Below are positions 5,815 to 59,772 of a DNA stretch of 64,000 bases, one piece after another. The translations under genes were made by a program, and so were the position numbers. The notes under the pieces are model-generated. The model saw nothing but the letters and a program-made list of their open reading frames with translations, made no database searches and had not been told where the DNA came from. Position 1 is the stretch's first letter. Each line of letters starts with the position of its first letter. Source of the DNA: Nereocystis luetkeana (lineage: Eukaryota > Sar > Phaeophyceae > Laminariales > Laminariaceae); NCBI GenBank assembly GCA_031213475.1, contig JARUPZ010000005.1, positions 8,986,988-9,050,987 on the forward strand, read 5' to 3'.

Positions 5815-6020
5815 TCAACCCTTTTAGCACTGCAGTTCCATTTTGGAGACGAGACCACAGTAAATAGAACCAAGTATTGTTACGTAGTAAAAATAGGGAA
5901 ACATATACCAGGTAGGTTTTTGTTTTTACCGTAGGTCCTATTTACTATGGCTCCCCGTAATGCTTAGAAATCGAGTGGCTTCCCCCCTAAACTGGACTGC
6001 AGTCCTAGCTAAAAGGGTTA
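5815..6020. mobile_element. MITE family B copy split by a MITE family A insertion
   Basis: The left B arm (TCAACCCTTTTAGCACTGCA onward) is at 5815-5850. The right B arm (GAGTGG ... GGACTGCAGTCCTA ... AAAGGGTTA) is at 5963-6020. The sequence between them is a near-complete family A element. Joined by eye, the arms have the usual B order and about the usual B length. B was therefore already present when A landed. Confidence 0.8.
5851..5961 (-). mobile_element. MITE family A, copy 2 (inside MITE B)
   Basis: It runs from GAGACCACAGTAAATAGAACC to GGTCCTATTTACTATGGCTCCCCGTAAT. Relative to other copies it has an extra CCAGGTA after the TA of ...ACATATA, giving TACCAGGTA at 5906-5914. The outermost left bases are eroded or lost at the junction with B. 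Confidence 0.8.
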
Positions 6021-6394
6021 TTGAACAACGTTGCCCAATGAGAGAGAGAAAACCAGCACCGGCATATATATCCCTGCGCCCCGCTCCCACCGGAGCACCT
6101 TGGCGGTGAGGCATGCCGCCTTACGCGTGAATGCACCACCCCCTACAGCCCAACTACTCCGCCAATCACGTCCATCTGCCGATCCGCCGCCGCACCAGTA
6201 TGCGTAGCCCTTTCAGAGGTGCACCCGCGCTTTTTTCGTCAAGAATATACTTGGAGGTTGTGGAGGATCATGTTTACAGCGCGGTCCAATGCCCGTGCTC
6301 TATGTATACGGTAGGGTTTTCACTTGATTAAGGTACGTAGATGCCTCATTTTTCACCGGCCACATTTTTCACTGACGGAGTTCCTGAACCAATG
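6021..6394. other. Gene-free stretch
   Basis: I see no gene, repeat or structured RNA that I can support. A short plus-strand frame at 6131-6331 shows no domain. Confidence 0.4.
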
Positions 6395-7034
6395 CAACTC
6401 TCGAACTACCCAATATCGTTGGTTCCCAACTCTCAAACTACTCAATATATTTGGATCCCAACTCTCAAACTACCCAATATCGTTGGATCCGACTGTTCAA
6501 CTACCCCATGTCGTTGAATCCAACTATCAAACTACCCAATATCTTCGGATCCAACTCTCAAACCACCCAATATCGTTGGGTCCCCACTCTCAAACTACCC
6601 AATATATTTGGATCCCAACCCTCAAACTACCCATTATCGTTGGCTCCACCTCTCAAACTACCCAATATCTTCGGATCCAACTCTCAAACTCCCCAATGTC
6701 GTTGGATCCCAACTCTCGAACTAACTAATACCGTTGGATCCCAACTCTCAAACTACCCAATATCGTTGGATCTAACTCTCAAACTACCCAAAATCGTTGG
6801 ATCCGAACTCTCAAACTACCCAATATTCGTTGAATTCCAACTCTCAAACTACCCAATATTCGTTGAATTCCAACTCTCAAACTACCCAATAACGTTGGAT
6901 CCCAACTCTCAAACCACCCAATATCGTTGGATCCCAACTCTCAACTACCCTATAGCATTAGATCCAATTTTCTAAACTGCCCTATATCATTGGATCCCAA
7001 CCCTCTAAACTACCCAAAGATATCATTGGATCCA
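6395..7034. repeat. 32-bp minisatellite, about 20 units
   Basis: The unit approximates AACTCTCAAACTACCCAATA followed by TCGTTGGATCCC, 32 bp in total, with point variants and a few units of changed length. Since 32 is not a multiple of three, the frame rotates through three peptides (NYPISLDP, KLPNIFGS and QTTQYRWIP types). Long overlapping frames (6324-6728 and 6451-6975) stay open because of this. I treat them as by-products of the repeat, not as genes. Confidence 0.9.
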
Positions 7035-7292
7035 TCGATGTGAGTGTACCGTAAAGAGAGCGTTGAGGTCACACAGGGGTGCGATCGGTTTTCAGCGCTC
7101 GATTGTTCCAGAACGGGAAAGGTTGCTAGTACCAAAACAAGGTTGTTTCCGGCATTATCTATCTGGTCAAGAATAACCTTCCGAAAATATGCCGTGTGAT
7201 GTGTGTGTTGTCTTCACACTAAATCGTTCTTTCTACCCAGCTAACCAGTGGTGGGTCAGTGCCCACCCCGATTCCTTAACCTAGAGATATGC

Positions 7293-7400
7293 TATTTCGG
7301 GGGGCCATAGTTAACAAGACCTAGGGTATACATAAAACCTATATGTTTAACAATTTTTACTAACAATATTTGGTACTGTCAACTATGGCCCCCCGTAATA
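7293..7400 (+). mobile_element. MITE family A, copy 3
   Basis: The full-length copy begins TATTTCGGGGGGCCATAG and ends CTATGGCCCCCCGTAATA, with the usual ACCTAGGGTATACATAAAACC and TTTTACTAACAATATTTGGT core. The TA at each outer edge fits a TA target duplication. Confidence 0.88.
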
Positions 7401-8044
7401 ATTACGAGGTCACAGACTGAGACAGAGAAATACTAAAACGAAAAGAATCGTGAACGAAACGGGTACAACAGCGAGTGGAAGGCCAACGTACCGGGCACGA
7501 GAACACAGCAACACGAGTCAGATCGGAAAAAAAGAACAAAACACAACAAAAAATAAACAAAACTGTTTGATTTTTTTAGAACTCTTATTATTATATTGCC
7601 GTCGTCGAGAAAACGTGCGCTGGAAAACGATCGCGCTCCTGTGGGAACTAAATGCTCTTTTCGGTAGATACCTAACCCATGGGAGTGAGTACCATCGAGC
7701 TTAGCTTAGACGTTTCCTAAAATCCGTAGTTGGAGCTCCTCAAAAGTGAAGAGCCCCCCAAAAAGGGATAATCCAATTTTAGCACGGGTCACAAGACTTG
7801 CGAGTAACCCCTTTAGAACTACGAGCACCTACGGTTTTTGGGGGAAAACTTCTCAGAACTTGTGTGGGTTATGTCGACAGTAGTATACCAACCGCACTAC
7901 TAGACGAAAATGCGAGGACCCGTTGGCCTTCATGGCCATAGCCCAACGACCCTTACACCTCCATTCAGATTGGTAAGGATTAAGGCTGGGTTCTTTCTTA
8001 CGCCCGCCGAGAAATACCCCCCTCGCTCTTCCGTTACAATAGAA
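7401..8044. other. Gene-free stretch before the satellite
   Basis: The stretch is A-rich at 7490-7570 and then mixed sequence. No gene, inverted repeat or MITE is recognised. Frames at 7450-7704 and 7910-8143 have no domain, and the second owes its tail to the first satellite unit. Confidence 0.45.
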
Positions 8045-10068
8045 GAAACGCGGGGCATGAGCATACTACGCTGCGGTGCGACAGAGAAGCAACCGTCGTT
8101 TGTTTTCTTCGCGGATACGGACGGATTGAGGCCAGAGAGTTGATAAACGCGAAGCCAGACACTCCAAATAAATGGAAGAATCATAATAACCCACCCTCTT
8201 TTACCTGGGGAGTACGTCGTCAGGCTAACAGCACAGCAGACACTATAGAGGAAACGCGGGGCATGAGCATACTACGCTGCGGTGCGATTGAGAAGCAACC
8301 GCCGTTTGTTTTCTTCGCGGATACGGACGGATTGAGGCCAGAGAGTTGATAAACGCGAAGCCAGACACTCCAAATGGAAGAATCATAATAACCCACCCTC
8401 TTTTTTTACCTGGGGAATACGTCGTCAGGCTAACAGCACAACAGACACTATAGAGGAAACGCGGGGCATGAGCATACTACGCTGCGGTGCGATACAGAAG
8501 CAACCGTCGTTTGTTTTCTTCGCGGATACGGACGGATTGAGGCCAGAGAGTTGATAGACGCGAAGCCAGACACTCCAAATGGAAGAATCATAATAACCCA
8601 CCCTCTTTTACCTGGGGAGTACGTCGTCAGGCTAACAGCACAACAGACACTATAGAGGAAACGCGGGGCATGAGCATACTACGCTGCGGTGCGACAGAGA
8701 AGCAACCGTCGTTTGTTTTCTTCGCGGATACGGACGGATTGAGGCCAGAGAGTTGATAAACGCGAAGCCAGACACTCCAAACAGAAAAATCATAATAACC
8801 CACCCTCTTTTTTTACCTGGGGAGTACGTCGTCAGGCTAACAGCACAACAGACACTATAGAGGAAACGCGGGGCATGAGCATACTACGCTGCGGTGCGAT
8901 AGAGAAGCAACCGTCGTTTGTTTTCTTCGCGGATACGGATGGATTGAGGCCAGAGAGTTGATAGACGCGAAGCCAGACACTCCAAATGGAAGAATCATGA
9001 TAACCCACCCTCTTTTTTTACCTGGGGAGTATGTCGTCAGGCTAACAGCACAACAGACACTATAGAGGAAACGCGGGGCATGAGCATACTACGCTGCGGT
9101 GCGATTGAGAAGCAACCGTCGTTTGTTTTCTTCGCGGATACGGACGGATTGAGGCCAGAGAGTTGATAGACGCGAAGCCAGACACTCCAAATGGAAGAAT
9201 CATAATAACCCACCCTCTTTTACCTGGGGAGTACGTCGTCAGGCTAACAGCACAACAGACACTATAGAGGAAACGCGGGGCATGAGCATACTACGCTGCG
9301 GTGCGATTGAGAAGCAACCGTTGTTTGTTTTCTTCGCGGATACGGACGGATTGAGGCCAGAGAGTTGATAAACGCAAAGCCAGACACTCCAAATGGAAGA
9401 ATCATAATAACCCATCCTCTTTTACCTGGGGAGTACGTCGTCAGGCTAACAGCACAACAGACACTATAGAGGAAACGCGGGGCATGAGCATACTACGCTG
9501 CGGTGCGATAGAGAAGCAACCGCCGTTTGTTTTCTTCGCGGATACGGACGGATTGAGGCCAGAGAGTTGATAGACGCGAAGCCAGACACTCCAAATGGAA
9601 GAACCATAATAACCCACCCTCTTTTACCTGGGGAGTACGTCGTCAGGCTAACAGCACAACAGACACTATATATAGAGGAAACGCGGGGCATGAGCATACT
9701 ACGCTGCGGTGCGATAGAGAAGCAACCGCCGTTTGTTTTCTTCGCGGATACGGACGGATTGAGGCCAGAGAGTTGATAAACGCGAAGCCAGACACTCCAA
9801 ACAGAAGAATCATGATAACCCACCCTCTTTTACCTGGGGAGTACGTCGTCAGGCTAACAGCACAACAGACACTATAGAGGAAACGCGGGGCATGAGCATA
9901 CTACGCTGCGGTGCGATAGAGAAGCAACCGTCGTTTGTTTTCTTCGCGGATACGGACGGATTGAGGCCAGAGAGTTGATAAACGCGAAGCCAGACACTCC
10001 AAACAGAAAAATCATAATAACCCACCCTCTTTTTTTACCTGGGGAGTATGTCGTCAGGCTAACAGCAC
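8045..10068. repeat. Satellite array, ten units of ~202-206 bp
   Basis: Units begin GAAACGCGGGGCATGAGC at 8045, 8251, 8456, 8658, 8863, 9068, 9270, 9472, 9678 and 9880, so spacing is 202, 205 or 206 bp. The T run after CCACCCTC is four or seven bases, which explains the 202/205 step. Units are nearly identical apart from a few recurring variants (TCG/CCG, AAATGG/AAACAG). The array ends abruptly in AGGCTAACAGCACA near 10068. Short frames on both strands repeat with the unit and are not genes. Confidence 0.95.
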
Positions 10069-10069
10069 A

Positions 10070-10908
10070 CCATGACGAGTTTTTTCCCGACAGGTATGTC
10101 ACCAAATGTTCGAAATCGGGACATTTCTTACACTGATGACAGGTATGTTTTTCCACGCCTGTTCACTTGAGAGTGAAGAGAACGTTCAATCACTTCAGTA
10201 GCGAGAACTCTCTTCCAGCTTTGTTCTGGCTGTTAGGACCCAAGAGTAAACTTGAAGGAACACGCGCGCCTCCTCGCGTCGCGTCTAAACAGCAGAAAAA
10301 AACATCGCAGCAGTCCCTCCGTTCGCTCTCTCTGTGGAAAAACGCAAGACTACAATTATTGGACGGGCTGATAGTGGAGCACGATTCATTGCGCACACCC
10401 CCCAACGGCCACAGCGCATATCAGTTTTGTTGGAGAGCAAGGTCACATATCAGACCTTGCAACGATCGGAACAGGCCAACGGCCAGCGAGCAGTGGCCAA
10501 GCTTTTTCTTCGATGAGGCATGTATTTTTGTTACGGCGGCGGGGTGATTGGATACTGTTGCAACGCCCTTCAAACGCCGGGCCAACGCATATGTGGTTGT
10601 TCGATAACGATACAACTCGGTATTTGATACGTCGGGAATAGAAAACCGCGGTAATTCGACGGCAAACAAACGTGTTCCGTAACAAGACACGTCGGGAAAG
10701 GTCCGAACGGAAAGGATTAGTTTTTGGTATTTTTGAGACACCAGCGGAATGGTCGGGGCGGGAATTAAAAATCGTGGTAATTCGACGGCAACCTTATTCG
10801 GGAACGAAACACCTCGGAAATGGTCGGGACGGTAACTATTAATAGTAAAGGCGGCAACAACGCGAATTGTACGTTAAACGCAGGAATACGACGTCAATCA
10901 CGGAAATG
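10070..10908. other. Gene-free stretch; GGTAAT/CGGCAAC-rich DNA
   Basis: No gene is recognised. From about 10590 the sequence is built of loose repeats such as ACGTCGGGAA, GTGGTAATTCGACGGCAA and GGTAATCGCGGTAAT. These grade into the dispersed repeat at 10909. Confidence 0.45.
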
Positions 10909-13331: not shown

Positions 13332-13335
13332 GAGG

Positions 13336-15853: not shown

Positions 15854-16903
15854 ATGGCTCGCCATGCCCTCATCACCGCTAGACAAGTTGCTGAAGCACG
15901 AGCCGTGGATACTGCCACCGCAGCTCCTTCGTTACACGATCCTGAGTTCCGCCGACTGCCGCCCCCTCCGGCCCCGGTGTCCCCCCCTGCCCCGGTGCCC
16001 TGCCCTGCCCCGATGTTTTTCGCCCGTCCCCGACTCAGCATGCCACGGACACCAAAGGCGAAGGAGAAGTCCCCCAGCCCCGCCAGGTCTGCCAGCGGCC
16101 TGAGGACTTACGGCTCCTCTCCCTCGTCGGGAGAGCGGACACCCCAGCGTCCGGGCCGGACGGATTTGGACGACGCTGTGGGCTACGAAGCCCGCAGTTC
16201 CGAGGACAAAGAGCGAACGACGATGCAAGGCGCCGCTAGGGAGACAGCGCTGGACGGGGATCAAGCCCCGCCCCCCCCAACTACCAGAGGCCTGGACCTC
16301 CCTCTCGGTCGAGGCCCAGGCGGCCCTCATCCGGCGCTGGTCAGACGTGCCGGACCTCGGCGGGGGGATCACGGCCTCTTGCAGCCGACGATCACCCCGA
16401 TGTCGCGACGGCCGTACGGGCCTAGACTGCCGCCGAGACCCTCGGAGCGACCTCGGCGGAAACCACCCGCCGCCGGGCGCAGGCGCTCACGGTGGCCGAG
16501 ACTGTGGCATCAGCGGCCGCTCGCACCGTCGCCGACGCTACCACTGCTTCGGAGGCCGCAAACAACTCTTCGAAGGAGGCCGCCGTGGCCTCGGAGGACG
16601 CCGCACGCTCCGCCTCCCGCGCCCAGGACTCCATATCCCGCGCCAGGGAAGCTCTGCGGGCGGCGCGGGCGGACAGCAGCACGGAGCCCCGTCGTGTTGC
16701 CGAGACAAGACACTCAGGGGAGCGCCTTCCCCTCGCCGAGACCGCGACAACCGCCACTCCAGCCCCCGGTTTTGACTCCTCCGCCACGCTCCCTCCTAGC
16801 GCCATCGCGGTCGACGCCTGGATCAAGCGTACCGGGGATCTGGATTTCTTCCAGGGAAGTGTCGCCTGCATGGCCGCCGCCCCAAATTCATGCTTCCCCT
16901 TGA
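15854..16903 (+). CDS. Gag-region ORF, Pro/Arg-rich, gypsy element
   Basis: A 349-residue plus-strand frame, very rich in Pro and Arg, overlaps another open frame (16492-16944) that gives an Ala/Ser/Glu-rich, coiled-coil-like peptide. No enzyme domain is seen. Its position before the zinc-knuckle ORF suggests the N-terminal part of Gag. I cannot say from composition alone which overlapping frame was used. Confidence 0.35.
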   Translation: MARHALITARQVAEARAVDTATAAPSLHDPEFRRLPPPPAPVSPPAPVPCPAPMFFARPRLSMPRTPKAKEKSPSPARSASGLRTYGSSPSSGERTPQRPGRTDLDDAVGYEARSSEDKERTTMQGAARETALDGDQAPPPPTTRGLDLPLGRGPGGPHPALVRRAGPRRGDHGLLQPTITPMSRRPYGPRLPPRPSERPRRKPPAAGRRRSRWPRLWHQRPLAPSPTLPLLRRPQTTLRRRPPWPRRTPHAPPPAPRTPYPAPGKLCGRRGRTAARSPVVLPRQDTQGSAFPSPRPRQPPLQPPVLTPPPRSLLAPSRSTPGSSVPGIWISSREVSPAWPPPQIHASP

Positions 16904-24401: not shown

Positions 24402-25012
24402 TTTTCGCTTCTTGGCTGCCCTCGATTTTTTTTCTTGACGTTTTCCTGGGTTTGGGCGGTGATCTTTCTCGTTGTTGACGTTTTCCGACTTTTCGGGTCG
24501 ATATTTTTTTTCTGGCAGGTGTGTTCCTGGGTTGTTTGTTTGAGTGTTTTTCTTGGGCTTGGTTAGGGATAATGTTCGCGTATTCTGTCCTGCCTACCCC
24601 CCCGCTCAGTGTTGGGGCTGGTTGGGTAATCGTACCACTCACTGTGGCACAGGACACGTTTCCCGAGTAGTAGGCTGGGTTTTCGATGTCTCTTGACATC
24701 TTCCGTGATACCAGGTATTATTCTTCTCGTCTTTTTTTTATGTTCCCTTTTCACTTTCCCTGCATCTTCCTCGCCCCCCCCCGTCGCGGGTGACATGGCG
24801 ATGGTTTTTCGTTGACGATTTCTTCCTGCCCCTTGAGGCTACGCTTCCTTTCATTCTTTTTTACGTACTTTGCCGGCTTCGTCGCCTTGCCGTTCAGAGG
24901 TGTGGGAGTGGGTTTTGAGGAGCCGCATCTTCGACTCATGTTCTAGTTGTGGAATCGGGGTTTTCATGAATTTCCCTCAATTCTGCATATACGGCTCATC
25001 AGAGTGGGCTGG
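24402..25012 (+). other. 3' untranslated part of the gypsy element
   Basis: Pyrimidine-rich sequence runs from the last ORF to the 3' LTR. One TACCAGGTA lies at 24709-24717. No gene is recognised. Confidence 0.5.
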
Positions 25013-26784: not shown

Positions 26785-27689
26785 GAGCGCAAACACCGAA
26801 CTAAATATATACGATACTACTAGGGAATAAAAGGCCCTCCCGCCCCCACGGTGGTCGGGCCATATTCCTGTAGATAATATAGGAGCTATAATAGGTGAGC
26901 CAATACTACATACCCTGGTACATAGAATGGACAATCATTGTGGCCCCGTGCTTTAAATTAATGAGAACCGCTTTGTAAGTCACTTCATGGGACCTCAATA
27001 AGCGCTAAAATGATGAAGTATGTGCAATATTTATTTGATATGCTTGCTCCCTCTCTGAAATCTCACACTGCAACTTTATTTGGTCGTTGGTTGCAGCAGT
27101 GTGATGCAATACAATCTGCGGGTAATACGATAAGCGCACAGCAGAGGGACCACACTCGGAGTATGGACTGTTTCCGTGTCGAGCAAATTTCGTACTCTGA
27201 ATGCTGAGACTATTATTCATAGATAGGGTGCTTGCGACTTCAACATTGCGAGTGACTGGGAGTGTGAGCAGTACTCAACTTCAAACCTCTAAATACTGCC
27301 TAAATGTTGCGAGTAAGTGCGTGTGAGTAGTACTAAGGATCCAAATGCCACGAGTGCAAGGAATGCCCGCAGGGTCGGACGCCGAAATATCCGAATGAAC
27401 GGTCGTTAATATTATCACTTTAATCGAGAGGATGAGGTGTGTCAAATCGAGATGTCAGAGCAGAGGTCAGACGACCGTGCTGGTAGGATAATGAAATGAA
27501 AACGATGTCGAACTTACTTCATCACAAACACGAGGATGATGGAGACGGCAGCAGCAGTGGTAACGCAAAATGTAAATGCCGTACGAGACGTATCTGCACG
27601 AAGAACGGCTGTAATTATGGTGGTCACCGACAGAAGAGCGTGCCGGATTGGGTCTTCTTGAGCAAAGGCCAGACGATGCTCGTAAGTTA
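26785..27689. other. Gene-free stretch
   Basis: I see no gene or defined repeat. Words such as GCGAGTRACTGRGAGTGTGAG occur twice near 27246 and 27308, and grade into the next minisatellite. Confidence 0.4.
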
Positions 27690-28375
27690 TCAATATGGGA
27701 AGGTGCAGATACTACGCAGATGCTCCGAGTACCTTGGAGTAAAGTAACGAGTATCGGAGATAGATTACTGCAGGTACTTCGTGTACTCGGAGTATTTCAG
27801 GGCTCGATACTCCGAGATACTGCTCGTACTCGGAGTATTTCGGGTATGATCACTCTCAATACTGCTTGTACTCGGAGTATTTTGGGTTTCGATACTCTGA
27901 AATACTGATGTACTCCGAGTATTTTGGGGTTTATTACTCTGGAATACTCGTTGTGCTTGAAATATTTGGGGATTTTGTACTGCTCCTACTTTGAGTACTC
28001 GGAGTACTTGGGCATTTCGTACTGCGAAAACTTCAGTACTCGGAGTATTTCAGGGTTTCATATTCCGAGGTACGAGTAATACTCGGAGTATTCCAGGGTT
28101 ATATACTCCCAATATACTCCGGGTTAGAATATTACTCGGAGTATTTAACTCGGATGAAGAATTCCTGGGTTCAATACTCGCAATACTCGGAGTACTCCGA
28201 GTAATTTAGATGTTTGTACTCTGGGTACTCCTTGTACTCGACTTTAAGTGCTGCTCATACTCCCAGTACTCGGGAGTATTTGGGTCTTCAGCACTGCTCA
28301 TACTCCAAGTACTCCGAGTATTTAGGCCACCAGTACTCTAATACTCGGAGTACTCGGAGTACGAAAAAATTACTC
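27690..28375. repeat. Degenerate minisatellite with the core TACTCGGAGTA
   Basis: The 11-mer TACTCGGAGTA, or its complement TACTCCGAGTA, recurs about every 30-45 bp, spaced by TTTCGGGTTT-like filler. The core is nearly its own reverse complement, so units appear on both strands. Frames through it are not genes. Confidence 0.85.
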
Positions 28376-31063: not shown

Positions 31064-31849
31064 CATGCATGCAAATAATATTAGCGGTAGTCATGTAGAA
31101 CGCTATTAATAGTGTCATCCCAACAGCAAAAAGGTATGCCTTGTGCGGTAGCTCCTCGGGGCCCTTTGAAGTCCAATCGGTCAGAAACATTGCCTCACAA
31201 GGCAAAAACTAAATAAAAGAACAACAGGGATCGGGAACCGATGTTATTGTAATCTACAAGTTTGTTGTTGTCACGTAGAGAGATTTCGGGGATTTAATAT
31301 GGTTCATATTATTCGGCTGAGTGCGTTTTAATAGCACGTGGCTCACGTTAACAGAGGGCACTGTTTGGTTGATCGCGCTTGTGGGGCTACCAAGCAAGTG
31401 GATACCGCACGGAACGGTGCTGGCAGGCAGACTGGTGGAACACGAGAACAGACGGGGTAGTTGCTTGCAGCTGGACAGCGGTCGCTCGCCGGGCCAGGTA
31501 TTTCGTGATTTACGATTCATCGCTACGCGCGCGGAGAGTCGAGGAAGTGGCGAGAGCCAAAGCAAAATCGGAGGTGGAGCGCTTCATACGTGGCACAGTC
31601 AGCGAGCGCGGAAGAGTCGACATCGCGCTGCGTCGCATCGGCCGGTACCAGGTATGTTTTTTTTTTTTTACGTGCTGATGCGGATTGTTTATTAGTCTCT
31701 TTGGCTCACGACACGCTTGTGGACGGAGGGCGTGTGCGTTCCGGGAGTGGCTCGAGCGAGGTGTGTTGCTGATGCCGAGAACAAAACGCGGGAGAATAGC
31801 AACAGTTCGACCTCATGACCCAAGCGCATGTAAATCACAAATCGCGGCA
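31064..31849. other. Unassigned 5' part of the outer copia element
   Basis: A TACCAGGTA lies at 31646-31654. Frames such as 31321-31695 carry no domain. This is probably leader sequence plus an older insertion. Confidence 0.4.
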
Positions 31850-32990: not shown

Positions 32991-33002
32991 GACTACCTGG
33001 TA

Positions 33003-33249
33003 TGTTCGTTTGAATCGTTCCAGCAGCGACGGTTACAAGTTGTAGAGGGTTGCGTAGATATTCGCAGGCGTTATTGTGAATTTTGCCGTGTGCTCATCAT
33101 GAGGAGAGTTCGAGCACTTCGTTCTCCGTTCCGAGCTGCGAGCTAGGCTCCGCTCTCTCTCTCCTCCTCTGTCCTCTACTACAACGACTATAAATAATCT
33201 CATCAGACCACGTGGTGGCCAAGGCATCCAGGTTTGGACTCTACGAACA
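33003..33249 (+). repeat. 5' LTR of the inner copia element
   Basis: It is 247 bp. It contains CTATAAATAATC near 33190, which could be the core promoter TATA box of the element. Confidence 0.93.
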
Positions 33250-38028: not shown

Positions 38029-38272
38029 TGTTCGTTTGGATCGTTCCAGCAGCGACGGTTACAACTTGTAGAGGGTTGCGTATATCTTCGCAGGCGTTAT
38101 TGTGAATTTTGCTGTGTGTTCATGAGGAGAGTTTGAGCACTCCGTTCTCCGCTCCGAGCTGCGAGCTAGGCTCCACTCTCTCTCTCCTCCTCTGTCCTAT
38201 AATACAACGACTATAAAGAATCTCATCAGACCACGTGGTGGTCAGGGCATCCAGGTTTGGACTCTACGAACA
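38029..38272 (+). repeat. 3' LTR of the inner copia element
   Basis: It is 244 bp, with the same ends as the 5' LTR, followed by the GACTA target duplication at 38273. Confidence 0.93.
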
Positions 38273-38293
38273 GACTAGTCACGGCGACAATAA

Positions 38294-40584: not shown

Positions 40585-41577
40585 ATGAAGCTTCCAGACG
40601 CAAAATTTTGGGGAGCTGCTGGAGACAAGGAAATGGCTAGTCTTCACGAGCTAGGAGTTTACAAGCTTGTTCCGCGATCTTCTGCTCCTCCGGGACAGAA
40701 AGTCATCAACTCCAGGTGGGTTCTGAAGCGTAAAGCTGACAACTCATACAAGGCGCGGGTGGTGGCTTAAGGCTGGAACCAGGTTCCGGGCCTGAACTGT
40801 GGGAACACGTTTGCTCCGGTTTGCCGTTTGCACAGCATCCGAATGGTGCTAGCCATTGCAGCGGAGCTGGACTTGGAGGTTGTTCAGCTGGACGTGAAAA
40901 CTGCTTTTCTGTATGCTGATATTGAGGAGGAAGTGTTCGTAGCACAGCCGCTTGGTTACGAGACTAAGGACAAGGATGGAGGCCCTCTGGTCACGAGGCT
41001 GGAGAAAAGCCTCTGCGAGCTAGCTCAAAGCCCCGGGAATTGGTTCCACATCCTTGACCCCGTTCTAAAGGTCATAGGTTTCATCCCTCTGAAGTCCGGC
41101 ACCTGCATCTACATATACCAGCATAAAAGTGGCACCGTCATCCTCACCTTGTACGTGGACGATCTACTCGTGATTGGTGGCAACATCGACGTGATCGAGA
41201 AGGTTGAGGCACAGCTATTGGACAGGTTCAAGATGACCGACATGGGCGATGTGTCGCGTGCATTTGGGCTGCAGGTCAACCGCAACCGTGCGGAGAAGAC
41301 GCTCAAAATCGACAAGGAGGACTACACCAAGTCCGCCCTGGAGCGATTTGGGGTTGCCAACTGCAAGCCTACGCTAACCCCCGGTTACGGGCCTGAACTC
41401 TCCACCAAGCAGCCGGAGGGGACACTGCTGAACGCTGACGAGAAGCAGAGGTACCAAGCGATAGCAGGAGCGGTCATGTACCTGGCCTCTGTTCTCAGGT
41501 ACCAGGTACGACATTATGTACAGCTCGAGTCAAATCTCTCGTGCTATGTCAAATCCGTCGAAAGTGCACATACATGA
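40585..41577 (+). CDS. Reverse transcriptase region, outer copia element
   Basis: VINSRWVLKRKADNSYKARVVA begins the domain. FAPVCRLHSIRMVLAIAA, VQLDVKTAFLYADIEEEVFV, LEKSLCELAQSPGNWF and LTLYVDDLLVIGG (VDD of the active site) follow in RVT_2 order, then DRFKMTDMGDVSRAFGLQV. The copia assignment is secure. Confidence 0.85.
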
Positions 41578-43493: not shown

Positions 43494-44914
43494 ACTATAG
43501 ATCGAAGGCAGAGACGGAGGGAGGACGGAACGACGCAGCAAGCGGAGAGCAGGGGGACGGGAAGCATGGGCGATAGCGCATCTATATATCTGGGCGACGG
43601 ACATACTACACAGTAGTAGTAGTTGAAAATATGGCTGTTGCAGTTACCATCATAATATCACTGAATGCGTGCTGCCAAGCCGAGAAAAAAGAGAGGGCCG
43701 ACGCGGGCGCGGAGAAAGAGGCCTCGGCGTGCACAGCAGTGCAATTTTCCGATGAAAAAAAATGAAACCTCGAAAACCCCAACCAGAGGCAGCACCAGAG
43801 GGGGGGGGCGGAACGCTCCAATCGGGGAGAGGGGACGGCAAACACTGGGCAAGATAAGCTGTACCTGGTACCTGGTAACGGTTATATTGAATGAGCTTAC
43901 GATAGCGTCCGGAAAAACGAAAAAAAGAGGGCCGACGCTGGCGGGGAGAAAAAACCCAGCATGCAGTGAAATTTCCGATGACAAAATGAAATCCCAAACC
44001 AAAAACCAGATCAAGGGCAGAGCCGGGTGGGAGGGCGAAAAGCCTCAAACAAGATTGAGACAGGGAAACCCCCATCGCTCTGACACACCTAAACCTTGCT
44101 TGAAGCCCACGAGCCGCGAGCCACGAGCAGCAGGACACAGGCGGTCGGCTATTGCCGCTGCTACGGAGTTTGTGCCGTTGCTGCTACTGCAAGCTGCTGC
44201 TGCCACAGGCTGGTGCTGCTGCCACAGGCTGCTGCTGCTCTGCTACTGCTCTGCCGACACTGCTATTAATAGTAGTGCTACATACTCAGCGTGAAAAAAA
44301 AACAAGACGAGGGATCCATGCAACTATGCATCCACCCACCCATCCACCAAAATCGTTCCTCGCCGCAGGAAAGAGCATTCTTCTTCCAACCACTCCCCCC
44401 CGCAAGCACTCGACGCGACCCCCCCCCCCACCCCTACCCCCCCCCCCCCCCCCTCAATAAACCCAACAAGCGAGCAGTGGAACTCCACCACCATGATGCG
44501 GCGTGGCTATTCGCAACCCAAACCGCTCAGGAAGGCCGCGGTGACTGATGAACCTGTGAGGCATCCAGTATATAGGCCACAAGCTCAGCCCTCGCGCGCC
44601 CCCCCGCCCCCCCACCGCCCTCCGCTTGAATCTGACACACGTACACAGTGATCACAAAATAGATTACAGGCAGGCGCGACGATTCCGGCGAGCTCAAGGC
44701 TCGCGGTGCGGTGGCCAAAAACAAAACAGAAAGCGGTCCTTCCTAGCAAAGCAAAAAACACTTTCTTATCTCTTTTTTTTTTTGTAATGGCCGCACATGT
44801 ATCATCGCGCCATCTCGCGCGGGGCACAGCAAAAACCCAACCAACCCGAGGACAGCACAAAGGAAAAGAGGGCAGAAAAAAAAAAGGCAGAAAAAAATGC
44901 TTCTGCTGTCCGCC

Positions 44915-46909: not shown

Positions 46910-47016
46910 TTAACCCCTTTAGAACTCCAGTCCCGTTTTGGGGACAATCCACTCAAACTCCAAGTATTTCCCCCCCAATTGTCCCCAAAACGAGACTGCA
47001 GTCCTAAAAGGGTTAA
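46910..47016. mobile_element. MITE family B, complete
   Basis: It runs from TTAACCCCTTTAGAACTCCA to GCAGTCCTAAAAGGGTTAA. TTAA at both edges and CCC-starting inverted ends recall piggyBac-type non-autonomous elements. The centre has GGGGACAATCCACTCAAACT and CCAAGTATTT. Confidence 0.9.
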
Positions 47017-48052
47017 GGGAAGTTAAAGGCAGAAAGAAAACGTAAACTTAAAAAGGAAGAAGTAAACGTAAACGTATTAGCCAAAGGTAAAAGAAGAGGG
47101 AACATGGAAGGAGAAAGGGAAGACCAAGGAAACAGAAAAGGTACACTGCGGTACAGGTATGCTTCGAAGTGAGACCCAAAAGGTACAGGGGAAGAGGTGA
47201 CTGTACAGGTGAAAGGAAAAGGTACATGTGAAGGCACAGCTAAAAGGCATGAGGGTGAAAAGGCAAACGTGAAAAGTCCCTGCCCCGCGACCAGAAAAAT
47301 ACTCGCGTTGACGATGCAGATGTGGCTGTTTTCCCGAGACAAAGCGACAGGAGTTGGCAAGAGAGAGAGAGAGAGCCAGAAAGCGAGAGAGGCACAAGTT
47401 TCGGCCCGGAAGCCTAATTTAATAGACGGCATAAATCGTGCAGTCCCTGACAATAGTAGAAACAGACATACCAATAATATCCAACATAAATAGCAAGAAA
47501 CTGAACCTGCAGCATTTTCGGGGACGACGTAATAAATAGTCGGGCACCACGTTAGAGTGGAATACTCTTTTCGAAGCATAAATACGTAAAACGAAGCGAG
47601 AAGGAGAATAGGCGACATCCCTTGCTCGTTATTATACCTGCACCCCTGGTATACCGCCGGTCACCACCGGTAGCACTCGCGACCGTACGAGCCGGCGGCT
47701 GGAAAATCGCCTTTTGCAGCTACACACTATAATACTGCGCTGTAGTTGCATGTTGCGTGGAACATTCCGCGGATGCACAATGTATACTGGCACCGGTCGT
47801 GATAAGACGCACCAGGGATTACTACTGCTGCGCATCAATACGCGGATATATACTCCCGACTTTTAAAAGGACGGGGAGAAAAAAACGGTTTGACGTGTAG
47901 CTCAACAACAACAACAACAAAAACAAACAACGAAACGATCGTAGCCCGCTTCCGAAGAATCAGAATCACGACCGGCCGTTCGTTTGCTTAAGGGGTTATA
48001 CAGCCAAAAATAATTACCCTAGCGAGGAGGCGGAGCGCTGGCGACAAGATAG

Positions 48053-48985: not shown

Positions 48986-49027
48986 GTGACACCTGGGGCT
49001 TTTGTGCATGTACCACTCTGTCGTCCC

Positions 49028-49113
49028 TTAACCCTTTTAGAACCGCAGTCCCGTTCTGGGGACGAACCAAGTAGTTTGTCCCCAAAACGGGACTGCGGTT
49101 TTAAAGGGGTTAA
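49028..49113. mobile_element. MITE family B, short complete copy
   Basis: It runs from TTAACCCTTTTAGAACCGCA to GCGGTTTTAAAGGGGTTAA, 86 bp with a reduced centre (GGACGAACCAAGTAGTTTGT). TTAA is at both edges. Confidence 0.9.
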
Positions 49114-49804
49114 ACGTAAACACCTTCTCGATTGATTGTTAAACCACAAACTGTCCTTTTCTTCAGGGAGAGAGTGTTAATACACAATATATATACTTGG
49201 TATATAAATTCATATATATATATATATATCAGGTATATCCACGCGCTCCAGAGTGCACGGATCGCGCCGAGACCTCGACCGGCCGGGCTTCATGTGCCCG
49301 AGCATTTGGTGTTTTGCCCAAAAGTGCTTTGTACCAAGAGAAAAGTTGGCAAAAGTACGAAAATTTGACAAACATACGTATATATATATATCAGGTATAT
49401 ATATAATCCACAAAAACCACACAAGAGTTCGTTTCCATCGATATGAATTTCCACTTTCAAGATTCAAGATCATGTAGTCAAGATTCAGGAACGTGTGGCC
49501 GGCTTGACGACAAACTTTTGCTGAAAAAATACCTACCGTAATTACAGCAAAAAATAAAGACTGTCCGCCACGAAAAAAAAAATAAAGATCATCGCTGAGA
49601 CCTGCAGGGACGCGGCAAAGGTGTCAGGAGACAGCACTTTGACCCCTTGACGGACAGCAACTCTGCCTTGACATGCCGTGACTGACACCAAACATATAGG
49701 TTTTAGTATGGAACACTCGGTCCCATACCCCACCACCTCGACAGCGCGCATTTTGGCTGGCTTGATATGTCTCCCGACATCTTTGGTACCTGGTACGAGG
49801 TATC
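49114..49804. other. Gene-free stretch with TA microsatellites
   Basis: AT dinucleotide runs lie at about 49210-49230 and 49380-49405. TACCTGGTA lies at 49787. No gene is recognised. Confidence 0.5.
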
Positions 49805-50442: not shown

Positions 50443-50665
50443 GAGTGTTGGATATCGTATAAAAACAAAACGATATATATATGATATCAGAACATCGAGC
50501 TTTCGATATATCGTATAACATGCGATGTACCAGGTATACTACTACTACTACTACTACTACGTAGTGTTGGATATCGTACTAAAAAAACGGGATATGATAT
50601 CAGAACATAGAGCTTGCGATAAATCGTGTAACATGCAATGTACCAGGTATACTACTACTGTCAAT
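50443..50665. repeat. Tandem ~115-bp repeat with TAC run and TACCAGGTA
   Basis: GTGTTGGATATCGTA and TGATATCAGAACAT, then AACATGCRATGTACCAGGTA and an ACT run, occur twice (about 50446 and 50566). A third start follows at 50677. The ACT/TAC run varies in length. Confidence 0.85.
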
Positions 50666-50700
50666 ATTTAAGAGTAGTGTTAGATACCACGTACCTGGTA

Positions 50701-51220
50701 TATCGTGTCGCTTTTTTCGCCCTTCATCCCACGGCATCCCCGTGCTTTTTCATGCAGATACTGAACGAAAGCTTCGATGCGTCAAATATCGGGATCGTAT
50801 CGGGTACTTATATTTTGTTTATCGGTTTCGTGCCGAACTGGATTCCGAGATCGATATCCGATATCAACACTAGAATATATACACGGAGGTCTTCCCTCCC
50901 CCCTCCTCCTGACGCCCCTATAGGTGAGTAGAGAACACCTACTTTGTGCTGGTCAAGAAAACCCTTGTGCTCCTCGCTTCTTTTCTCTTTCCCGTGGGTT
51001 TGTACCAGGTATGTATATACCCCTGGTACACGTAGACACGGAGGTCGTAAGGAGGCGTGTACGTGCGTCCCCAGTCGTACGGTACGACGGTCAGGTCGGG
51101 TCGGCATGCTCATGTGGTATACTGCGGGTCACGTGCAACTTGCGCTGCCGTTGCACATCAGAAGCACCGTTGGGTACTACTGTACAACATCCGCTGTCGT
51201 ACCTACCACAAAGCAGAGCT
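50701..51220. other. Gene-free stretch
   Basis: TACCAGGTA lies at 51003. No gene or structured repeat is recognised. Confidence 0.4.
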
Positions 51221-51270: not shown

Positions 51271-52041
51271 CCTATATCCCCTGCCAAGTCGATGGTAGCC
51301 CCCCCCCCCCCTGCGCACCCTGTGTCATTCTGCGTCGGCTGCGTCACCTTTTATTGTTATATTTGTGTCGCCCTTCGCTATGTTTTTTCACTTATTTTTC
51401 CCGTTTCTGTTGACAAGTTTCCTTCGTCCGTCTGTCCCTGTCCTCTTTGGGTCGGTTGTCTCGTCCTCGACCCACCAACTGGACATGGGGACAGCTCGTT
51501 TTTTGTTTGTCGTTAGCGTTGGCTCTTTGTCTCTACCCTCTTCTTGCCTTCTTGTCTTCTTGCCTTCCGTCTGGTCTGGTCTTCTAGTGGCGTCCTTATG
51601 TTGGTCCTTCAGCTGGACAGATCACACGCCTGAACGAACCAGCAAACAGCGACCTTGTCCTCGGGACTCGGCCTGCGCCTCGAGAGCATGTTCGCTTCGT
51701 TTTTCTTTCTGTCATCTATCTCTTCCTTTGAATTTTTTCCTTTCTTCTTCTCTCTTCGTGTTTCTCTAGCTCTTCTTTTCTCCTCTTCTTTTTTTCGAGC
51801 GCACATAGAATACCATGGATATGTTCCTGGTGTTATCCGGCCGTAAGTGATGCGGGATGGCATACCACATACCACAGCTCGCAATGGTCCCTCTACAATC
51901 GCCGGCGTGTACTTGTATGCGCCAGCCAACTGCCGGCACTGCTCCGCACGCTATCACACGGGCTAGTTAGCCCCATCCGCGCCAAGCGATTCCACAGGCA
52001 ACCCTCCACAGCGGGGGCGACCGGCACTACTCAAACCACAC
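51271..52041. other. Gene-free, pyrimidine-rich stretch
   Basis: T/C-rich sequence at 51340-51800 gives long Phe/Ser/Leu-rich frames without any domain. I do not call a gene. Confidence 0.45.
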
Positions 52042-52166
52042 TATTGCGGGGGACCATACTTAATACCAGGTAGGACCTATGGTACGTATACACAAAAACC
52101 CTGGTATATATTTACCTATTTTTACGAACAATATTAGGTTATATTTGCTATGGTCTCCCCCGTAAT
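52042..52166 (+). mobile_element. MITE family A, copy 5 (with added CCAGGTA)
   Basis: TATTGCGGGGGACCATAC is at the left and CTATGGTCTCCCCCGTAATA-like ends at the right. After TTAATA, where other copies go straight to GGACCTATGG, this copy has an added CCAGGTA, giving TACCAGGTA at 52074-52082. Confidence 0.88.
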
Positions 52167-52284
52167 AGAGAGGGACCACTTCTGCCGTGTACCGCCATGC
52201 TGCTGCTGCTGCTGCGCGTGTGTCGTGCGTCCAGCTCTAACAACTCCTGGCGTTGCAGTTCGAACATACATACCCCCCACGGCC

Positions 52285-52590: not shown

Positions 52591-53434
52591 CAAGGAGGCC
52601 CACCATTCAGTCCGACGACTCTTCTCTCTCATAAAAGGGGCGGCGAAGCCTTCATGTATATATTTTTTTGCTCAACACAACATACCCATCCGACCGAGCA
52701 CTCGCATCAAAACAACACAAAAAATGAAAAGAAGGCATGGGGTTTGAATGAACGAATGAAGTAGCCCAACAGCTGTTATATATATACTACCTGGTATTTA
52801 ATGCCTGGTACTGTAAACTACTCCGTGAGCGGAAACACACACGAGGAGCGTTCAAAACATCAACATGAATACCACACGGTCTTTACATTACCGTTAAGAG
52901 TCATACCGTGCAACACCCATGATAACCACACCCCTCCACGGGACGCCACGGTAATTCTCGACAAAGGCGAAGAAAAATGCAAACGCCGGGTGATGATGCC
53001 GTCAGGATCCTTTTCCACAGCCCCCATTTTGGTTGTGGGTGCGCCCCCCCCCCCTTAAGGCACGTTTCGGAGTGAACCAGCTCGAAAATCATCTCAGGGG
53101 GTGTGTTATCTTCATCGCCCTGGTGTGTTTCGGTAAGGCTGTCACCGGTCACCTCTACCCGGAACAGAGTCAGCTAGCCGTAGGTAACGGGGACATCTGC
53201 CGAAACGTCAAGTGTCCTCTATCCCCGGTATGCAATCGCCTCCGTACCCGGCAGTGGAAACCCCGGGGATGGGTGAAGTTCACCAATAATAATGGTATTC
53301 ATTCCCTACGGGCTATTTTACTGATGTTATCCCCGGTTTCGCCGCAATACGCCTACGCCAGTCACTCCCAACGCTGAAATACAGGTATTCATATTACACA
53401 CACGTAGCTTTTTATTTTTGCTCCAACATACCAC
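52591..53434. other. Gene-free stretch
   Basis: TACCTGGTA lies at 52788, followed by a second ATGCCTGGTA word. A 114-residue plus-strand frame (53033-53377) contains a hydrophobic patch and several Cys but no family is recognised. Confidence 0.4.
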
Positions 53435-54591: not shown

Positions 54592-54688
54592 TTAACCCTT
54601 TTAGAACTGCGGTCCCATTTTGGGGACAAACCACCCAAAACCCAAGAAGTTTGTCCCCAAAACGGGACTCCGGTCCTAAAAGGATTAA
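54592..54688. mobile_element. MITE family B, complete
   Basis: It runs from TTAACCCTTTTAGAACTGCG to CCGGTCCTAAAAGGATTAA, 97 bp with TTAA edges and the usual GGGGACAAACCACCC centre. Confidence 0.92.
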
Positions 54689-54761: not shown

Positions 54762-54869
54762 TTAACCCCATTAGTCCTGCAGTCCCGAGTTGGGGACAGA
54801 CCATACTAATTCCAAGTGCTATGTCCCCACATTATCCCCCACACGGGACTGCAACACTAAAAGGGTTAA
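54762..54869. mobile_element. MITE family B, complete, diverged
   Basis: It runs from TTAACCCCATTAGTCCTGCA to GCAACACTAAAAGGGTTAA, 108 bp. It lies only 73 bp after the previous copy. Confidence 0.9.
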
Positions 54870-56392: not shown

Positions 56393-56915
56393 CTATTATG
56401 GGAGATTATTTCTGGGTTCTTCAGGAATTGAGTTTTTCGGCCAAAATAATACCAGGTACGCGTGTTACTCGGCGGGACAGTGAAAAAACACCTGCAGCCT
56501 CCGCAGGATGCTCCCCCGAGTTTTCCGAGAGATTTCTTAAACAGTTTTCCGTTTCTACAGAGTCTTAGGATTTGTTTTTCGGCGCAGACAACCAGTATTT
56601 CACTAGAGGGTCAAAAACAAGATTGCCATTTGTCAGAACTAGACGCAGAAATAATGGAACTTCGAAGCTTTTTTTTTGGTGAAGTACCATAGCGTCCTCA
56701 GAACTTGCAATATGGCCGAACAGTCAAACTACGACTGCTGTAGAGAAACGGAATACTGCTCAAGAAAGCTCTCGGAATACTACAGGGGGGCATCCTGAGG
56801 AGTCTACCGGCATTTTTGAACGCCCCGCTGAGTAAAATCGCGGGTTTTCGGCAATAAAAAAACCAACTAAAACTCAACAACCCTTCCATTTTTTCCCATA
56901 ATAATTGGTCTTGAG
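56393..56915. mobile_element. Fold-back element F2, ~520 bp with long imperfect inverted arms
   Basis: The left end CTTAAGACCGACTATTATGG faces the right end CCATAATAATTGGTCTTGAG. Arms of about 180 bp give similar peptides on opposite strands (SFPRDFLNSFPFLQS and SIPRAFLSSIPFLYS). TACCAGGTA at 56450 sits in the left arm only. Confidence 0.85.
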
Positions 56916-57016
56916 CGGGCGTGTGTGTGTTTTTCCCCTTTTTCATTCATCACTTTCGCCCTTCTTGTATCTCTCCTTCCTACTTGTGACTCAGATCTGG
57001 GGTCACACAATAATAA

Positions 57017-57125
57017 TATTACGGGGGACCATAGTTAATAGGACCAAATATTGCTAGTAAAAATTGTCAAATATATAGGTTTTCATGTGTACCATAGGTC
57101 CTATTAACTACGGCCCCCCGTAACA
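57017..57125 (-). mobile_element. MITE family A, copy 6
   Basis: TATTACGGGGGACCATAG is at the left and CTACGGCCCCCCGTAACA at the right, with the core in minus orientation (GGACCAAATATTGCTAGTAA). Confidence 0.92.
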
Positions 57126-58074
57126 GTAGGCTCTTCTTCCCCCCTCCCCACTACGAGGCGTGTTCGTCTCGAGTTCGTTCGTTACCGGGTTATTTCCTAC
57201 GGGGAGGGCGGAGGGGGGGGGTGTGCTAATCTTGCCTGCACATAGTGCACGTCTCCGGGGAAATCTCTTGAGGCGGATCTCGTTTCTTGCCGGCTTCTTT
57301 TTTTCTTAGCGAACGAATGAACTCTGTGCGTTTGCTCTACAAACATAGCGGGAGGTTGCTGCACCGGCGAAGACGTCAGAGGGAACACTACCAGATACAC
57401 ATACATATAGACGCACCCACTCCTTGAACTCTCCTGCTTCATATGTTGTCCTCATATACGGACTGCTGTGCATATATATACCCCACATGAGGCCATGTAA
57501 AACCCGTAGCACCCGCGATCGAGGTATCACACAAAGCCACAGCGTGGAAAGATGAGTTTCGACCAAAAATCCTCGATCTCGAAGCGGTTGCTTTTTATTT
57601 CATTTTTTATACCAGTATATCAATATAAACATACGTACGGCCTGGGCTGAACATGGGGGTGCCCCTGCTGCAACACCTACAGAGCATACCGCGCCCACAG
57701 CAGTCGTCTGTATGGCATACCAGCACCTGGTGGGGTAGCGCTCCCGCTGCTTTCAAACATGTAGCAATTTGTAAGACAACTCTGAAAACCTGCACGCCTA
57801 GCAGGACGCGCGATCGAACTGTCGCACCAAGCTCGGCAAAGACGATTTCGAGAGTAATTTTTCGATCTCACAGCTTCCGTTGTCTTTCGAAAATATATAT
57901 ATAAATACGTATATATAACAAATACCAGGTATATCATCATTCGCGCGTTGCTGTAGAGATAGATCAACAGATGCACAACATTTTCATTTCTTAACTCTTG
58001 TCTCGCACTCTCCGTGCCTTTGTACCGCGTCCATCTCATGCGAAACAAATCCATGCGCATACGAAGTCTGCTGC
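57126..58074. other. Gene-free stretch
   Basis: TACCAGGTA lies at 57923. No gene is recognised, and the frames are short and without domains. Confidence 0.4.
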
Positions 58075-58182
58075 TATTACAGGGGACCATAGTTAATAGG
58101 ACCTATGGTATACATAAAACCTATGTATTTAACCATTTTTACTAACAATATTTGGTCCTATTAACTATGACCCCCCGTAATA
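58075..58182 (+). mobile_element. MITE family A, copy 7
   Basis: TATTACAGGGGACCATAG is at the left and CTATGACCCCCCGTAATA at the right, 108 bp. This is close to the family consensus. Confidence 0.93.
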
Positions 58183-58298
58183 GCACATACCGCAGTAGAT
58201 AGGCACGATATCCCCGGTACCAGGTTGTAGGGTTACATAAAGACAACAGACACAGTAGTTGAGGTTATCGCATATTCGAGAAAACTGCTGGCCCACAC

Positions 58299-58407
58299 TA
58301 TTACGGGGGACCACAGTTAATAGAACCAAATATTGTTGGTAGAAATGGTCAAATATATAGGTTTTAGTGTATACCACAGGTCCTATTAACTATGGCCCCC
58401 CGTAATA
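58299..58407 (-). mobile_element. MITE family A, copy 8
   Basis: TATTACGGGGGACCACAG is at the left and CTATGGCCCCCCGTAATA at the right. It lies 116 bp after copy 7 and in the opposite orientation. Confidence 0.93.
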
Positions 58408-58478
58408 CGAGCACGAACTGCTGCTGTGTCGTATGTAGGAGACACGGGGCATCAACAATCGATAAGGCTAACCAATGG

Positions 58479-58593
58479 TTGATCCGGGGTGCAGTCCCAA
58501 TTGGTGGACAAAACCACTCAATTTCTGAGCAGTTTGTCCCCGCAATGGGACTGCGTTTTTTTTTTTTTTTTTTTTTGCCCTGAAAGGCGTTGT
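58479..58593. mobile_element. MITE family B, diverged, with a T run
   Basis: GTGCAGTCCCAATTGGTGGA and CAGTTTGTCCCCGCAATGGG match the family. A run of about 22 T interrupts the right arm. Confidence 0.65.
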
Positions 58594-58596
58594 AGC

Positions 58597-58705
58597 TCAA
58601 CCCTTCTAAGAACTGCAGTCCCGTTTCGGGGAAAAGCCAGTCAAACTCCAAGTAATTTGTCCCCAATTGTCCCCACAACTCGGACTGCAGTGCTAAAGGG
58701 GTGAA
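58597..58705. mobile_element. MITE family B, complete, diverged
   Basis: It runs from TCAACCCTTCTAAGAACTGC to GCAGTGCTAAAGGGGTGAA, with the centre CAGTCAAACTCCAAGTAATT. It abuts the previous copy. Confidence 0.82.
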
Positions 58706-58823
58706 GAGCCCCTCCGTAACTGCACCCACCGTTTGGGGGACAAAGCCCTTGGTTTTAGTTCTGAAAGGGTCGTCAGCGGAGAGGGTCGTCAGCGGAGAGG
58801 GTTAACGTACAACAACAGCAGTG

Positions 58824-59109
58824 GTGGCGGTCGGGCTATGGTGATAAAAATCGTCTCGTACACCACCCAGACAGCAGTGTTTCTGTCTTCCCCCGGCCCT
58901 ACTCTCGAAGGAGTGGCAAGCTACGTACCCTCTACCCTTTTGCTGTGCAGAGATCGATCAACAGACGTGGCGGTCGGGCTATGGTGATAAAAATCGTCTC
59001 GTACACCACCCAGACAGCAGTGTTTCTGTCTTCCCCCGGCCCTACTCTCGAAGGAGTGGCAAGCTACGTACCCTCTACCCTTCTGCTGTGCAGAGATCGA
59101 TCAACAGAC
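58824..59109. repeat. Recent tandem duplication of 143 bp
   Basis: Two copies start at GTGGCGGTCGGGCTATGG (58824 and 58967) and run to GATCGATCAACAGACG. I see one base difference, so this is the youngest duplication in the window. Confidence 0.95.
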
Positions 59110-59271
59110 GCAGAATAATTTCCTTTTTTTGTCTCTTGTCTCCCGTCCGTGGCGACAGAACTCGTAGGCATCTCTCATCTCGCCAGGTGAAGGCCGGGCC
59201 AGTGAGAGCGGTATAGGCGGCCTACGAACTAAAAAGAACTAGGTTTCGTACGAGTATGTTGGACTAACAAC

Positions 59272-59368
59272 TTAACCCCTTGAGAACCGCAGTCCCGTTT
59301 TGGGGACAAACTACTTGAAATTTGAGTGGTTTGTCCGCAAAACGGGACTGCGGTTCTAAAAGGGTTAA
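59272..59368. mobile_element. MITE family B, complete
   Basis: It runs from TTAACCCCTTGAGAACCGCA to GCGGTTCTAAAAGGGTTAA, 97 bp, near consensus. Confidence 0.93.
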
Positions 59369-59641
59369 CGCTTGGGCTCACTTTTTAGGGAGTGGGGGGG
59401 GGGGGGGGGGGGCGCTACGTACGACAATTGGATCAAGAAATCGTGCATTAGCGGCGAGCTCTGCACTGCTGTCTGTACACACCCTACAACTCTGGCCCGC
59501 AATATAAGGACCTTTTTAGACATCAATATGAAGACCAAGCTGTCCTTCCTTTGACGCTCAGAGCGGAATCTCAGACTACCTTTCTCTTCGTTGGCGGGGG
59601 CCTATATAATATAACACACCGGGTGATATATAACAACACAC

Positions 59642-59772
59642 TATTACGGGGGACCGCAGTAAATAGGACCAAATATTGCTAGAAAAAATAGGTAAATATA
59701 TACCTGGTACCTGGTAGTTTTTTGTGGGTACCATATGTCCTACCAGGGTATTTACTATGGTCCCCCGTAATA
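59642..59772 (-). mobile_element. MITE family A, copy 9 (three added CCWGG-type blocks)
   Basis: The copy has normal ends (TATTACGGGGGACCGCAG and CTATGGTCCCCCGTAATA). Inside, AAATATATA is followed by CCTGGTA twice before the GTTTTTT stretch, and TCCTA is followed by CCAGGGTA before TTTAC. These account for its extra length over the ~108-bp family norm. Confidence 0.92.

Follow-up and report, generated by a model that had tools for sequence, protein, structure and literature searches.

The window analysed here is a 64-kb stretch of the genome of the brown alga Nereocystis luetkeana (GenBank assembly GCA_031213475.1, contig JARUPZ010000005.1, positions 8,986,988 to 9,050,987), which lies on contig C5 of the 465-Mb assembly; further stretches (L001-L074) were sampled elsewhere. 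We found that the palindromic 9-mer TACCWGGTA, whose central base is A or T, is a derived 7-bp insertion (CCWGGTA) placed exactly at a TA, and that it was probably left behind when a TA-targeting DNA transposon was excised. Exact copies numbered 25 in the window and formed 22 runs, 3 of them doubles, some lying within copies of a miniature inverted-repeat transposable element (MITE-A) or at copia elements. The putative scars and the features that they interrupt are as follows, with the strand given where one is assigned:

1155..1163, TACCTGGTA, putative scar (exact motif search)
2905..2913, TACCAGGTA, putative scar (exact motif search)
5906..5914, TACCAGGTA within the MITE-A copy at 5853-5961, with a bare TA at this point in most other copies
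24709..24717, TACCAGGTA, putative scar (paralogue comparison)
26911..26920, minus strand, TACCAGGGTA, the 6-nt form of the putative scar
31646..31654, TACCAGGTA, putative scar (exact motif search)
32994..33002, TACCTGGTA, putative scar whose first TA closes the GACTA target duplication and whose end adjoins the 5' long terminal repeat (LTR) of copia
33003..33249, plus strand, 5' LTR of the inner copia element
38029..38272, plus strand, 3' LTR of the inner copia element, followed by GACTA at 38273-38277 without insertion
41500..41508, plus strand, TACCAGGTA causing a frameshift in a copia reverse transcriptase gene, where RYDIMY is conserved
43862..43877, TACCTGGTACCTGGTA, putative double scar (exact motif search)
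49787..49795, TACCTGGTA, putative scar (exact motif search)
50528..50536, TACCAGGTA, putative scar common to the tandem duplicate at 50641
50641..50649, TACCAGGTA, putative scar in the tandem duplicate of the 50528 region
50692..50700, TACCTGGTA, putative scar (exact motif search)
51003..51011, TACCAGGTA, putative scar (exact motif search)
52064..52072, TACCAGGTA within the MITE-A copy at 52041-52168, inserted at a second TA of this MITE
52788..52796, TACCTGGTA, putative scar (exact motif search)
56450..56458, TACCAGGTA, putative scar (exact motif search)
57923..57931, TACCAGGTA, putative scar (exact motif search)
59701..59716, TACCTGGTACCTGGTA, putative double scar within the MITE-A copy at 59641-59773
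59741..59750, plus strand, TACCAGGGTA, the 6-nt form, also within the MITE-A copy at 59641-59773 but at its second TA
61163..61171, TACCAGGTA, putative scar (exact motif search)
61198..61213, TACCAGGTACCAGGTA, putative double scar (exact motif search)
62427..62435, TACCTGGTA, putative scar (exact motif search)
62498..62506, TACCAGGTA, putative scar (exact motif search)

The initial annotation had counted about 25 copies against about 0.5 expected and had placed them at 5906..59716. The count of 25 held, and 100 dinucleotide shuffles of the window gave an expectation of only 0.26 (standard deviation 0.54, maximum 3); both ends of that span are real copies, but the copies actually range from 1155 to 62506. 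Genome-wide, 182,395 sites were counted, compared with 1,744 for the motif written backwards (the reversed pattern, which served as the control for genome-wide counts), so the enrichment whose absence would have counted against the initial annotation was found. A chance origin was rejected on both the shuffles and the reversed pattern. In 200 kb sampled as twenty 10-kb stretches from fixed positions of contigs C1-C5 (2.5 kb of it N), there were 61 copies; once five further stretches had been added, the tally was 70 copies in 250 kb. In the window plus the twenty stretches (264 kb), the canonical 9-mer occurred 86 times versus 2.2 expected from a second-order Markov model and ranked fifth in excess among all 9-mers, the top four being simple repeats. 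Its one-substitution variants were also in excess (106 versus 50.5 expected), by about 56 as compared with 84 for the exact motif; CCWGG was the single dominant scar sequence. The majority of runs (74 of 80) were single copies, in which the central base was A in 37 and T in 37.

Most of the 26 MITE-A copies in the window and L001-L024 read ...ATATATA|GGTTTT... or similar. In the copies at 5853, 59641 and L010:6292, CCWGGTA followed the TA of this junction, twice over in 59641, while the copy at 52041 carried it at a different TA (GGTCC-TA-TTAA) and the copy at 59641 had CCAGGGTA at that second TA. Further, less clean insertions were present in other copies (e.g., L022:7447 and L022:7220). The initial annotation had noticed an extra CCWGGTA after a shared TA in three copies, with a near variant in the third. 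The three insertions are real and the variant is the CCAGGG form at 59741, but the coordinate 52074 should read 52064-52072, and this copy uses the second TA, so that placement at the shared TA applies to 5906 and to the double at 59701. At the inner copia element, the left junction read GACTA-CCTGGTA-TGTTCG..., just as had been described, and the right one ...GAACA-GACTA without insertion; the simplest order would be that the insertion struck the TA of the copia target duplication after copia had landed. In the copia reverse transcriptase of the window, ...LRY lies in one frame and RYDIMYSSSQISRAMSNPSKV in a different one, with the switch at the 41500 motif; the homologues P0003-P0006 and P0021 read RYDVMY, RYDIMY or similar. 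This comparison of frames showed an insertion, and coding coincidence was rejected as the origin of the 41500 motif. Among the few named matches of at least 120 listed, this reverse transcriptase resembled brown-algal sequences, from Pylaiella littoralis and Ectocarpus, in line with a brown-algal host. It also carried a second frame change at 41544-41572, which looks like a 4-base ACAT repeat rather than an insertion at TA.

The 105 motif runs with enough flank were compared with the window and the sampled stretches, and a spanning paralogue was obtained for 31. At 11 of these 31 sites (5 in MITE-A and 6 in other repeats), at least one paralogue still had the bare TA precisely where the insertion lies, often alongside others whose TA was mutated or that aligned with gaps. 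The insertion was common to the paralogues at 14 sites (pairs counted both ways; L017:9110 was a weak alignment), and at 6 sites all or nearly all alignments were gapped. Three cases in L070 were the cleanest: the site L070:4233 differed by the insertion from a 97%-identical paralogue, L070:5454 had an empty paralogue at 92.8% identity, and L070:1518 had two (90.6% in the example displayed). For the window site 24709..24717, the bare TA was kept in L011:3879-3717 (85%), and L022:6320-6424 (95%) was without the insert, but with its TA mutated. Moreover, a single repeat in L017 carried CCAGGGTA at 3768 and CCTGGTA at 3808, both inserted at TA. MITE-A, copia and the other repeats supported the earlier statement that independent sites had gone from TA to TA-CCWGG-TA.

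An abundant palindromic 9-mer could in principle be an ancestral or functional motif, such as a palindromic binding site, that had been lost from some copies. However, this motif breaks the junction between target duplication and LTR in copia as well as the reverse transcriptase frame, and MITE-A carries it at more than one of its TAs. Bare TA in most MITE-A copies and in near-identical paralogues indicated that the block was not ancestral, and we considered this origin the least probable of all those weighed here. CCWGG is also the Dcm site of Escherichia coli and a trouble spot for some sequencing models, and the identity of the scar core with a methylation motif would be in line with an assembly or base-calling artefact. 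Against this, insertions were common to the diverged paralogues L004/L007 (84-93%), one-base variants were in excess (106 versus about 50 expected), and neither the symmetric profile about TA nor the A-linked 6-nt form, both described below, would be expected from miscalls; an artefact is very unlikely.

The tandem double TACCWGGTACCWGGTA was found at 15,917 sites genome-wide versus 2 for the reversed control, and the 59 listed doubles comprised 40 with equal and 19 with mixed A/T central bases. The doubles and their mostly equal centres could have been born by slippage as a heptamer repeat (TACCWGG)n, and arrays of the same unit exist in bacterial genomes. The bacterial intergenic heptamer direct repeats, of which a TAACTGA case has been published (PMC4679880), resemble the algal motif in their 7-nt unit, some of them being exactly TACCWGG, but they form arrays, whereas the alga has single insertions at TA. 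We observed TACCWGG arrays of three to five units in at least 40 stretches (L030-L069) of bacterial metagenome-assembled genomes, which included Acidimicrobiia, Deltaproteobacteria, Gemmatimonadetes, Planctomycetes, Chitinophaga and others. In the alga, a first CCWGG at a bare TA cannot arise by slippage, 74 of 80 runs were single, the bare-TA paralogues spoke against slippage for singles, and the mixed centres did not suit it either. Slippage is therefore a very unlikely source.

The flanks of 80 runs differed from those of ordinary TAs, and left and right agreed when read outward. T was favoured at +1 (z 5.4), +3 (z 5.4) and +6 (z 6.7, the highest) and A at +7 (z 5.5), while A was avoided at +1 (z -4.8); further departures involved A at +2, T as well as A at +7, +8, and A at +14 (z 4.0). 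When 87 single sites were oriented by their central base, left/right asymmetry was absent (p 0.25). This two-fold symmetric preference without orientation bias is what a symmetric transposase complex would give. TA was found at distance 7 on 40 of 160 sides and at distance 14 on 32 of 160, as compared with about 7% for TAs in general. Neighbouring motifs were seen 7 times at a gap of 7 (0.05 for random TAs) and 6 times at 8-49 bp (1.6 for random TAs), with no excess beyond 150 bp, and we read this clustering as repeated hits beside old scars. Consistently, 11 of 40 pentamers at distance 7 resembled a decayed CCWGG (at least 3 of 4 C/G positions). The preference was symmetric and AT-rich, as is that of IS630-Tc1-mariner elements around TA, with +6/+7 probably due in part to neighbouring old scars; such scars do not account for the signal at +1 to +3.

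The scars also existed in a form with a sixth base. Genome-wide, TACCAGGGTA had 11,422 sites (409 for its reversed control), as compared with 1,578 for TACCTGGGTA (reversed control 362), and CCAGGG was seven times commoner than CCTGGG in the 6-nt form. The sixth base is thus linked to A at the centre, and if the remnant corresponds to the end of an element, the ends of that element would begin CCAGGG. We also observed a tandem array bearing the 6-nt form at G000:C1:1305185-1308353, where TACCAGGGTA recurs at seven sites with an exact 528-bp spacing.

These two results bear on the main rival, a direct insertion at TA. An enzyme (telomerase-like, polymerase-templated or recombinase) might add CCWGGTA at TA where no transposon had ever been; this would suit one fixed block, the failure to find a donor element in about 0.33 Mb and the tandem doubles with mostly equal centres. 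However, templated addition is directional, and the flanks had no left/right asymmetry; the preference about TA was two-fold symmetric, and the A-linked CCAGGG looks like an element end that kept one more base. Both the profile and the CCAGGG asymmetry thus disfavoured the new templated micro-insertion that the initial annotation had offered as its alternative, and we judged direct addition unlikely. In a variant of this idea, the agent would be a nuclear enzyme whose target complex at TA is symmetric; it would insert CCWGG as a fixed pentamer, duplicating the TA, and the 7-bp unit itself would have spread about 180,000 times. We considered this equally unlikely.

Given that the insertions sit at TA, are in excess throughout the genome and have a symmetric target profile, we consider it probable that TACCWGGTA represents the excision scars of a TA-targeting cut-and-paste DNA transposon that leaves 5-nt overhangs. 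The transposon would insert at TA, duplicate it and have ends that begin 5'-CCAGGG. On excision, each flank would retain TA plus a 5-nt 3' overhang, CCAGG; the two overhangs would pair through CC/GG about a central A:A mismatch, and mismatch repair to A or T would give TA-CC(A/T)GG-TA. The sixth base would sometimes be retained, giving TA-CCAGGG-TA, and TAs flanking old scars could be struck again, giving doubles. We infer the transposase action, the CCAGGG end, the 5-nt stagger and the mismatch step, having seen neither the element nor its transposase.

The footprint of Sleeping Beauty is TACWGTA, one end of Mos1 starts with CCAGG, and Stowaway elements end in CTCCC. The algal scars resemble Tc1/mariner footprints such as TACWGTA in the TA target, the TA duplication and a palindromic remnant with an ambiguous centre, and insertion at TA with TA duplication was observed in copia, at the frameshift, in L017 and in the paralogues. 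The inferred end CCAGGG is not the CTCCC of Stowaway. In Sleeping Beauty the scars equal the 3' overhangs (PMC7827188), as would be the case for the overhang inferred in the alga. However, Tc1/mariner cleavage is described as two to three nucleotides inside the element (PMC2170065; likewise 2-3 nt in PMC7827188), whereas 5 nt separate the TAs at the 182,395 algal sites and 6 nt in a minor form; a further difference is that the alga has about 180,000 copies with the element not seen. Grass Stowaway/Osmar5 scars are described as TA...TA with 1-4 bp of the terminal repeat, and insertion beside an old scar has been reported there (PMC1925063). Those scars vary by site, whereas the alga has one dominant CCWGG scar. 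The Mariner-Tc1 elements of Ectocarpus are likewise brown-algal and are described as 17 families with about 12,000 copies (PMC12477816); the main text of that paper contains neither 'footprint' nor 'excision'. piggyBac differs in its TTAA duplication and scarless excision, where the alga shows TA duplication and a scar, and PIF/Harbinger duplicates 3 bp rather than the 2-bp TA. For ciliate-type TA-bounded eliminated sequences, the element would be expected in the germline and missing from the soma; the present analysis covered a single assembly. Because the scar is of 5 nt rather than 2-3 nt and no element or transposase with these ends was found in about 0.33 Mb, we do not claim membership in Tc1/mariner or pogo; the system works like TA-targeting cut-and-paste excision.

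The search for the source element covered about 0.33 Mb of sequence, with four of the 28 DDE_1 loci among it. The DDE_1-type transposase families target TA, and a DDE_1 search of the genome gave 28 matches, several with open frames. TACCAGGG was found 22 times in the window plus 250 kb, 12 of which ran into TA and 10 had unrelated continuations. Several candidates were rejected. The motif as the end of a repeat failed because the TACCTGGGG copies at 8202-10036 belong to tandemly repeated units of roughly 200 bp and not to element ends; this array occupies 8036-10072, with units 93-96% alike. MITE-A has ends TA-TTACGGGGG, which are incapable of giving CCWGG. MITE-B, with copies of about 100 bp at 46910-47017, 49027-49113, 54592-54688, 54762-54869, 58599-58706, 59271-59368 and 63899-64000, has TTAA ends (TTAACCC...GGGTTAA) in most copies and is probably a TTAA-type (piggyBac-like) MITE. 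The PF03184 element common to L071 and L073 has the left edge GTA|CAGTGGGGGG. This pogo-type DDE_1 edge, at L071:37 and L073:1221, would predict TACWGTA scars; TACWGTA occurred 87 times versus 33.5 expected in the 264-kb sample, an excess that fits the same scar logic for a different family. Two side observations concern other repeats: many copies of the heptamers TA-CTCGGAG/CTCCGAG-TA are packed into about 600 bp at 27784-28361, and a viral collection gave no exact match to the MITE-A end or a triple motif.

Several results weigh against excision by a transposon. No element with CCAGGG ends was found in the 0.33 Mb; the transposon-footprint idea is thus upheld in its derived insertion at TA, its genome-wide excess and its TA-transposon logic, but not in its element. 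When 792 near-matching ends from the window and L001-L024 were compared pairwise, 207 similar pairs resulted, and only ordinary repeats appeared among the matches listed, the best 71 of 207 being tandem or dispersed repeats. TACCAGGG was absent from an 8-kb scar-dense stretch, and TACCAGGG and CCCTGGTA were absent from the four DDE_1 loci L071-L074 with flanks of about 1.5 kb, outside which the ends of a longer element could fall. A DDE_3 search of the genome gave 0 matches at E 0.001 (30 candidates scored). A total of 182,000 scars without a visible donor is an odd ratio, and the genome-wide count includes copies multiplied with host repeats (L004/L007 and the 528-bp array). Neighbouring old scars, rather than target choice, probably contribute to the signal at +6/+7 and +14, and some doubles may be tandem duplications, as equal centres exceeded the prediction for independent events. 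The difference between 5 nt and the 2-3 nt of Tc1/mariner belongs here as well.

With regard to age, by our reckoning steady activity over a long time would leave one-off copies at least as numerous as exact ones, and had there been one pulse only, the mean age would lie near 7% divergence. Comparison of the two excesses suggests that activity was neither solely recent nor solely ancient, and the empty paralogue of 97% identity at L070:4233 points to fairly young events. No report of TACCWGGTA scars came up among the titles and abstract openings listed by literature searches, or in passages of the Ectocarpus transposon paper (PMC12477816); one listed paper, on Mos1 (PMC2642840), contains CCTGGTA once. 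To our knowledge, a uniform 5-nt scar would be new, and so would a cutting geometry with a 5-nt stagger in a transposase that targets TA. If it is true, such a stagger with a self-annealing CC/GG overhang would account for the uniformity of the scars. The 7-bp scars alter reading frames. If they are scars, the genome of N. luetkeana keeps a record of as many as about 180,000 excisions, part of it copied with host repeats, from a donor family whose members are now rare or gone, and this record would be datable and mappable.

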